This document shows positions 12,166 through 13,067 of a stretch of 30,419 nucleotides of DNA, one piece after another. The stretch covers positions 1 through 30,419 of the IMG/VR virus record IMGVR_UViG_3300026257_000013; one strand, given 5' to 3'. The DNA comes from a virus. The position numbers and the translations under genes were made by a program. Within the stretch, counting starts at the first letter, position 1. The number at the start of each line of letters is the position of its first letter. The notes under the pieces were generated by a model. It saw only the letters and a program-made list of their open reading frames with translations. It was not told the origin of the DNA and did not search any database.

Positions 12166-12260
12166 CTGTAAGGGAAGGACTCGAACCTCCAAGACTCGCC
12201 TCGCAAAAGATGAATCGGCTGTTAAACGGACAGCTGTGTTTACCATTTCACCACCTTACA
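12166..12260 (-). tRNA. Atypical tRNA with GUU (Asn-type) triplet and long variable region
   Basis: Read on the minus strand the cloverleaf is clear. The acceptor TGTAAGG/CCTTACA (7 bp) is followed by a D arm with GTG/CAC and GG in the loop. The anticodon stem is GCTGT/ACAGC and the T arm is GGAGG-TTCGAGT-CCTTC. G73 follows and CCA is not encoded. The anticodon loop is CCGTTTA, so the triplet is GUU (Asn). G73 and U1-A72 also fit tRNA-Asn. Two features do not fit: position 33 is C rather than the near-universal U, and the variable region is 27 bases, as in or beyond class II (Leu/Ser) tRNAs, with only a 5-bp stem visible (GATTC/GAGTC). Either a diverged tRNA or a tRNA-like RNA with another role. 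Confidence 0.78.
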
Positions 12261-12264
12261 TTGA

Positions 12265-12282
12265 AGCCCTTATTCAAGGGCT
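12265..12282 (-). other. Hairpin at the aaRS stop/tRNA 5' junction
   Basis: AGCCCTT-ATTC-AAGGGCT is a perfect 7-bp stem with a 4-base loop. It spans the last sense codons and stop of the aaRS-like gene and ends 5 bases before the tRNA 5' end. There is no T-run after it, so it looks more like an RNA-processing or stability element than a terminator. Confidence 0.55.
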
Positions 12283-13067
12283 GATATTATTCGAGTTACT
12301 CCTATTCCACCACCACTACGGGGGAAGAAATCGAAGTTAAGGAAATCATCGAGTTCTTTCTCAACTCTTTCCTCACCAAATTTTCTATAGAGTAGTCCTG
12401 CATACCCACCATCAGAGATAGTGTGGAATGTTTCTCTCATCTGTGCTCTATCAGTACTACGTTCAGCAGAACCAATAGTTTCCATACCGTTTAGAATCAC
12501 ATCAATCTTACGACTGGTTCCGTCATCGTTACGTGCCATGTTCCAGAAGGGTGATGTCCATTCAGGAAAGTCCGTAATCATACCACGACCTATTGCCGCT
12601 TCATGTCCGTGATCTAATTCCTTCACCTTATATTGGTCTGCCCAATCATTATATTTTTTAATTTTAACCGTTTCTAGTGGTATTCCTAGATCCTCGCATA
12701 GGTCAATCTCCATTGCTTTAAGATCATAAACATCTCCTTTCATCTCGAACTCGAACATAGGGAAGATAGTTTCATGTCTACCTGGTACAGGATTGGGTTC
12801 TGCTCTATATGAAGTTGAGACACAAAAAAACCCTTCTGCGGAAGGGTTGGATAACAATTCATATTCTAACCACATCTGACCTGTCTGTGGTAGTGGCCAA
12901 ACATTGCCACCATAATTGTATGTTGCTACTGTCTCAGGGTCTTCACATGCTGCCAATATACTCAAACGATTTTGAGTATGTACTTCCAAGAAGTTCTTGG
13001 ACAAAAAAAATGACCTCAATCGGCCAACTGCATCGCTGTACTTCTTGGGGTCAATCAGACTTGTCAT
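12270..13067 (-). CDS. Class II aminoacyl-tRNA synthetase catalytic-core protein (Asn/Asp type)
   Basis: A 265-residue protein with all three class II aaRS motifs. Motif 1 is around FFLSKNFLEVHT (20-31). Motif 2 has SYRAE with R88/E90, then GRH (R97, H98) and FEFEM. Motif 3 is GGGIGVTR (252-259, R259). TGQMWLEYEL (62-71) and METIGSAERS (195-204) resemble AsnRS/AspRS. Full AsnRS is about 430-460 residues. The N-terminal OB-fold anticodon-binding domain is absent, as in the archaeal AsnRS-derived asparagine synthetase (AS-AR). It may thus make an aminoacyl-adenylate for a non-ribosomal purpose, make asparagine, or charge the adjacent odd tRNA. The substrate cannot be told from sequence. A perfect TATAAATA late promoter precedes it. 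Confidence 0.8.
   Translation of the reverse strand: MTSLIDPKKYSDAVGRLRSFFLSKNFLEVHTQNRLSILAACEDPETVATYNYGGNVWPLPQTGQMWLEYELLSNPSAEGFFCVSTSYRAEPNPVPGRHETIFPMFEFEMKGDVYDLKAMEIDLCEDLGIPLETVKIKKYNDWADQYKVKELDHGHEAAIGRGMITDFPEWTSPFWNMARNDDGTSRKIDVILNGMETIGSAERSTDRAQMRETFHTISDGGYAGLLYRKFGEERVEKELDDFLNFDFFPRSGGGIGVTRIISALE
12824..12848 (-). terminator. Terminator-like hairpin inside the aaRS-like gene
   Basis: On the minus strand AACCCTTC-CGCA-GAAGGGTT is a perfect 8-bp stem with a 4-base loop, followed directly by a T-run (seven T, the first two shared with the stem). It has full intrinsic-terminator form but lies in codons 74-82 (NPSAEGFF), just before motif 2. It may act as an attenuator. Confidence 0.6.

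Follow-up and report, generated by a model that had tools for sequence, protein, structure and literature searches.

The window analysed here, a stretch of 30,419 nt (positions 1 to 30,419 of the IMG/VR record IMGVR_UViG_3300026257_000013), derives from a T4-like cyanophage genome fragment that carries terminase, prohead protease S77 and plastocyanin genes among others. A protein resembling the catalytic core of AsnRS is followed in it by a tRNA of unusual form, which raises the question of what an enzyme that lacks an anticodon-binding domain does with a tRNA encoded beside it. The tRNA is placed at 12166-12260 on the minus strand by both ARAGORN and Rfam RF00005 (44.4 bits; gathering threshold, 29). 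As the core ends at 12270 and the tRNA starts at 12260, the gap after the stop codon is 9 nt, in agreement with an earlier note made from the letters of the window.

Table 1. Coordinates of the core, the tRNA and their functional elements in the window
Feature	Position	Strand	Remarks
265-aa AsnRS-like class II catalytic core, without anticodon-binding domain	12270..13067	-	PHROG 29758; T4-GC 194 'tRNA ligase' in P-SSM2/P-SSM7
Type II tRNA	12166..12260	-	U1-A72 = 12260/12167; G73 = 12166; CCA not encoded
Anticodon loop CCGUUUA of the tRNA	12223..12229	-	C33, G34U35U36 = 12227-12225, U37 = 12224
Long variable arm of the tRNA, stem GAUUC/GAGUC	12193..12216	-	Covariation and MFE fold
Glu68 of TGQMWLE	12864..12866	-	Aligns with the Glu of AsnRS that contacts the amide of the Asn side chain
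Arg203 of GSAERS	12459..12461	-	Aligns with the Arg of AsnRS that contacts the amide of the Asn side chain
Motif 2 Arg88 and Glu90 (YRAE)	12798..12806	-	ATP phosphate and adenine contacts; family-invariant; aligned with human AsnRS R322/E324
Motif 3 Arg259 (GGGIGVTR)	12291..12293	-	Family-invariant; aligned with the AsnRS motif 3 Arg

Elsewhere in the window, a plastocyanin-like copper protein, a photosynthesis gene on a phage, is encoded at 14346-14753 on the minus strand (PF00127, E 2.4e-20). Six overlapping ORFs occupy 18874-22287 on the same strand, four of which match 2OG-Fe(II) oxygenase, one below the Pfam cut-off; this run is followed by a 582-aa ORF (22248-23996) without a Pfam match.

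An AsnRS-derived catalytic core

The protein matches Pfam tRNA-synt_2 (class II D/K/N) over residues 12-264 with an E value of 2.3e-14. Its 265 residues contain the motifs RAE, GRH and GGGIGVTR and leave no room for an anticodon-binding domain, which bears out the earlier description of the protein as a bare class II core. The alignment with AsnRS begins at phage residue 11 and AsnRS residue ~137, so that the N-terminal anticodon-binding OB domain is absent. An AlphaFold model of the core (pLDDT 88.7), computed from an alignment of contig rows only, finds its best structural match in human AsnRS with Asn-AMP (8h53; Z 25.0, 2.4 A over 242 residues), followed by AspRS, AS-AR (Z 22.9) and EpmA (Z 22.3). 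In the comparison with AsnRS and AS-AR that had been proposed as a check, the core is therefore closest to AsnRS, and its ATP-contact residues are kept.

The amide of asparagine is contacted in AsnRS by Glu-233 and Arg-377 (PMC7387524). In the profile alignment, Glu68 and Arg203 of the phage protein fall on the amide-binding Glu and Arg of AsnRS, and Arg88, Glu90 and Arg259 fall on ATP contacts; all five residues are invariant across 30 diverse family members. Judged by this alignment, the core keeps the ATP- and asparagine-binding residues of AsnRS, and the invariance of the amide-binding residues favors the asparagine specificity suspected previously. The core shares with AsnRS (class IIb) the catalytic fold, motifs 1-3, the ATP contacts and the Glu/Arg pair for the side-chain amide, but differs from it in the lack of the OB-fold anticodon domain, in an identity of ~21%, in a score of 16.6 bits with the AsnRS family model TIGR00457 (cut-off, 342.6) and in its tie to pyrimidine genes. 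By domain content and by model score, the core is not an AsnRS. The models of the AS-AR asparagine synthetase (NF005055, 14.8 bits; cut-off, 389) and of EpmA/GenX (TIGR00462, 15.1 bits; cut-off, 286.9) also score below their cut-offs, and the protein is a member of an undescribed family of stand-alone AsnRS-derived enzymes.

The cyanophage core and its tRNA

P-SSM7, P-SSM2 and P-SSM5 each encode this protein (77-82% identity), directly followed by the same RNA, in differing neighbourhoods, and the pair of P-SSM7 is located between gp23 and gp3. Across 80 related IMG/VR loci, the reference phages and the window, the RNA is found in 79 of 79 complete downstream regions, a count that takes in only loci with enough downstream sequence. 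In a reverse scan from the RNA, the protein lies upstream in 111 of 119 loci at a spacing of 11-18 nt (99 nt in two); the remaining eight are contigs cut within 80 nt, in which the last codons of the protein are visible or the contig starts at the RNA. The linkage of core and RNA in cyanophages is reciprocal (100%), and the recurrence of the pair in about 80 independent contigs and in P-SSM2, P-SSM5 and P-SSM7 is far beyond chance. The pair behaves as a single mobile two-gene cassette. A chance adjacency to terL was rejected because the neighbours differ among the window, P-SSM7 and P-SSM2. The proposal of a dedicated pair of synthetase core and tRNA is supported by this linkage in both directions; homologues without the tRNA, which the earlier note had named as evidence against such a pair, are not common in cyanophages but are so in huge phages and cellular genomes.

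A literature search for this pair found no description; Sullivan et al. 2010 do no more than list a 'tRNA ligase', T4-GC 194, in P-SSM2 and P-SSM7, and a lone tRNA is listed for P-SSM2 (PMC3037559). This only tRNA of P-SSM2 (PSSM2_199) is placed at 162083-162168 by the record, and at AY939844.2 164094-164179 (L002 8825-8910), right after the 'tRNA ligase' and ~2 kb away, by ARAGORN and the RNA model; the order of the locus tags suggests a coordinate error in the record for PSSM2_199. In two loci (L072 and L083), an insertion of ~85 nt with long imperfect inverted repeats lies between protein and tRNA, and both genes are intact.

At minimum energy, the window RNA folds into a complete cloverleaf that bears an additional long variable arm. 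Among 55 distinct RNA sequences, standard pairs occupy 99.4% of the paired cells, compensatory changes support 20 of the 25 pairs, and the observed pairing level is reached by 0 of 500 shuffles; the stem of the variable arm is paired in 96.7% of cells and shows compensatory changes in three of its five pairs. The GUU anticodon and G73 had been read correctly in the earlier note, which had missed the type II long arm, the U37 and C33 of the loop and the 'tRNA-???' type that ARAGORN assigns to the window tRNA.

U1-A72, G73 and G34U35U36U37 are invariant in all 79 cyanophage copies, and U1-A72 is the sole acceptor pair without any variation. G34U35U36U37 is likewise present in four other marine contigs, and C33 occurs in 13 of the 79 cyanophage copies, including that of the window. 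In tRNAAsn, U1-A72 is the determinant that marks Asp-tRNAAsn for amidation, and recognition by AsnRS and by non-discriminating AspRS depends on the anticodon and G73 (PMC9976931). The RNA thus has the elements of asparagine identity, G34U35U36 and G73, as well as the determinant for amidation. All copies share these features with canonical tRNAAsn, but they have a long variable arm and U37 in place of a short variable loop and A37, together with a Leu-like D-arm and, in some, C33. The long arm and the D-arm are features of type II tRNALeu, and the best non-self matches of the RNA model in other genomes are tRNALeu, whereas the A73 and the Leu anticodon of tRNALeu are replaced by the invariant G73 and GUU. 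A Lys (UUU) reading of the loop was rejected, as both the U33-G34 register and G73 agree with Asn.

The variable arm is long, U37 rules out t6A and C33 occurs in some copies; from what is established about tRNA decoding, a loop of this kind serves the ribosome poorly. The long arm, the invariant U37 and the occasional C33 thus indicate that the RNA is probably not a ribosomal decoder, and the previously suggested use outside translation gains support from U37 and C33. Selection on GUU points to a protein that reads the anticodon; since the phage core lacks the domain for this, the reader is likely to be a synthetase of the host.

The special RNA was also sought in whole huge-phage records and in 26 homologue-holding genomes (22 of them those of loci without an adjacent copy), and the typed matches beyond the four known marine contigs are ordinary tRNALeu or, in LR756508, canonical tRNAAsn. 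An unusual 115-nt type II tRNA-like match with U1-A72 and G73 (64.8 bits; no ARAGORN call) is present at 21653-21767 of contig 347 of genome G018 (L300). This genome is a Chitinophagales MAG in which the enzyme gene occurs as well.

Relatives of the core and the pyrimidine pathway

A genome scan returned 125 homologues (80 kept) in Patescibacteria, Bacteroidota, Alpha- and Gammaproteobacteria, Myxococcota, DPANN archaea and others, and a search for relatives with L005 as the query returned none in viral contigs. Most cellular homologues are without the RNA, and the protein stands alone in huge phages and cellular genomes, which indicates that the RNA is dispensable for the basic reaction. In the enzyme tree, all cyanophage copies and three marine contigs form one supported clade and the fourth RNA-bearing copy, L219, is placed elsewhere, so that the RNA was either added in viruses or moved with the pair. 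L214 (MAG Flavobacteriaceae RS438) carries a T4-like DNA polymerase and L219 (MAG Chloroflexi NAT137) carries phage-type genes; both are therefore probably phage contigs mis-binned in MAGs.

A PyrD, PyrE, PyrF or PRT gene is located within 3.5 kb of the enzyme gene in 27 of 80 homologue loci on genome contigs, and within 400 nt in 17. These neighbours span several phyla and gene orders, and representatives are confirmed by Pfam: the order is enzyme-pyrF-PRT-pyrD in Bandiella and other Midichloriaceae; pyrD, enzyme, pyrF, PRT in Pasteurella atlantica; pyrE/F, pyrD, enzyme in Aureispira; and enzyme, pyrE/F, pyrD in Myxococcota. RNA-bearing contigs outside the cyanophages have such neighbours too: in L213, a PyrD-like gene lies 63 nt upstream, and in L219, one lies 1.0 kb downstream and scores 23.5 bits against a Pfam gathering threshold of 27. 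A tblastn search of phage records with the PyrD-like protein of L213 returned one remote match and none in cyanophages. In several cyanophage contigs, a PyrE-like phosphoribosyltransferase gene lies 250-600 nt from the pair; such a gene was not found near the pair in most cyanophage loci or in this window. In the Patescibacteria loci L249 and L274, the enzyme gene follows an ORF resembling argininosuccinate lyase, and upstream ORFs of L274 resemble OMP decarboxylase and dihydroorotate dehydrogenase.

The genomes that hold the gene lack much of the head of the pathway. Of 32 genomes with the gene, 31 have no pyrB (aspartate carbamoyltransferase) above the cut-off; this count excludes four bins holding RNA-bearing contigs, at least one of which is phage DNA. 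In the controls, pyrB is present in 14 of 14. Within the order of Aureispira, pyrB is found in 0 of 7 genomes with the gene versus 122 of 143 without it (Fisher P 4e-6). carB (carbamoyl-phosphate synthetase) is absent in 28 of 31 genomes; in one of the three exceptions (G010, contig C2), carB adjoins a carbamoyltransferase scoring below the ATCase cut-off, which suggests arginine synthesis. Dihydroorotase of the E. coli type is below the cut-off in 31 of 31 genomes, and P. atlantica, Midichloriaceae and some others have no dihydroorotase of the other type. Many Bacteroidota, by contrast, have PyrC-like proteins below the cut-off (200-262 bits) and may have kept a dihydroorotase. PyrD is detected in 22 of 31 genomes with the gene; as it goes undetected in several CPR genomes that carry the gene, the family may act otherwise there. 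These results indicate that, in these genomes, the gene occupies the place of the absent early steps, with PyrD still in need of dihydroorotate, and the cellular homologues combine the pyrD/E/F linkage and the absence of pyrB that a replacement of ATCase calls for. The obligate pairing of an AsnRS core with an odd tRNA and the tie of its family to pyrimidine synthesis stand on independent evidence at the level of sequence.

Proposed reaction and role of the tRNA

De novo pyrimidine synthesis is usually taken to begin with carbamoyl phosphate and aspartate. From gene content and neighbourhoods, we give even odds to the reading that cellular members of the family supply this start in place of CarAB-PyrB(-PyrC). 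An enzyme ahead of PyrD that binds asparagine and ATP could perform the conversion with one ATP, as asparagine + HCO3- + ATP -> L-dihydroorotate + AMP + PPi. The formulas balance, in that asparagine (C4H8N2O3) plus CO2 minus H2O equals dihydroorotate (C5H6N2O4), and asparagine already provides both nitrogens of the ring and all of its carbons except C2. The asparaginyl-adenylate would react with CO2 to form an N-carboxyanhydride, which the side-chain amide would open, thereby closing the six-membered ring and freeing the carboxylate. The chances for and against this exact reaction appear balanced. We know of no published enzyme that turns asparagine into dihydroorotate, and a literature search for an asparagine-based pyrimidine route found no precedent among the papers covered. 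The product, dihydroorotate for PyrD, would be common to the CarAB-PyrB-PyrC route, whereas the proposed route would employ a single enzyme of unrelated fold on asparagine, bicarbonate and ATP rather than carbamoyl phosphate and aspartate.

The partner of the enzyme in cyanophages and in some related marine phages would be a dedicated tRNA. The host AsnRS, or a non-discriminating AspRS with GatCAB, may read the anticodon and charge the phage RNA, which U37 and the long variable arm would make a poor ribosomal substrate; the phage core could then use the acceptor end of Asn-tRNA as a private asparagine supply where free asparagine is scarce. The infected cell would thereby gain additional dihydroorotate by a route that avoids the carbamoyl-phosphate and ATCase steps, which the host controls by feedback. 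The tRNA as asparagine donor is proposed tentatively, and its role is the weakest step of the explanation. The full reading, to which we assign a probability of roughly one third, is that a host-charged, non-translating phage tRNAAsn delivers asparagine, which the AsnRS-derived core turns with CO2 into dihydroorotate in one step that bypasses carbamoyl phosphate, and that the cellular version, which does without the tRNA, is an unrecognised way for bacteria of several phyla to begin pyrimidine synthesis with one enzyme. If true, a widespread AsnRS-derived enzyme would be a second solution to the start of the pathway where the usual genes are missing. The phage version would then represent a new metabolic use of tRNA, give the lone tRNA of P-SSM2 a role beyond codon usage and show a way in which phages may supply DNA synthesis free of the host's feedback control.

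The AsnRS active site, the asparagine identity elements and the strict linkage would be expected if the core charged the tRNA with asparagine and so provided the phage with an Asn decoder independent of the host. This is rather unlikely given the invariant U37, the C33 of 13 of 79 copies and the long variable arm; the anticodon domain needed to read the conserved GUU is missing, and the pyrimidine operon context of the family and its anticorrelation with pyrB also speak against a role in translation. The RNA could instead be a decoy or a replacement for host tRNAAsn hit by a defence anticodon nuclease, the protein merely helping, since U37 and the odd arm might evade nucleases that read normal tRNA loops. 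This is highly improbable, as a replacement would have to decode, and the obligate enzyme partner and the pyrimidine context are left unexplained.

An asparagine synthetase of the AS-AR/AsnA kind, which would make asparagine from aspartate and load the product on the tRNA, was considered in the earlier note and has lost ground. AS-AR is likewise a stand-alone class II core of the same domain content, similar size and related fold, but the phage core has AsnRS-type rather than aspartate-type specificity residues, with asparagine as the ligand, falls below the NF005055 cut-off, has a strict tRNA partner in phages and belongs to a family whose operon context is pyrimidine rather than asparagine metabolism or supply; this function is quite unlikely. 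Just as little likelihood is given to an enzyme that aminoacylates a protein or a modified base with the tRNA as substrate or scaffold. Truncated synthetase paralogues with such roles are known, among them EpmA/GenX (PMC3532385), a LysRS-like class II core outside normal charging. EpmA is, however, a lysine enzyme that acts on EF-P and has no tRNA partner, the phage core fails its model, and the loss of pyrB and carB and the pyrDEF neighbours would remain unexplained.

GluQ-RS is another truncated synthetase paralogue that acts on a different target. For the proposed asparagine-donating tRNA, the nearest parallel is found in non-proteogenic tRNAs such as the staphylococcal tRNA-Gly for cell-wall synthesis, in which a charged tRNA is kept off the ribosome and feeds metabolism. 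The phage RNA differs from it in being encoded by a virus, in its asparagine identity, in its paired gene and in its pyrimidine context.
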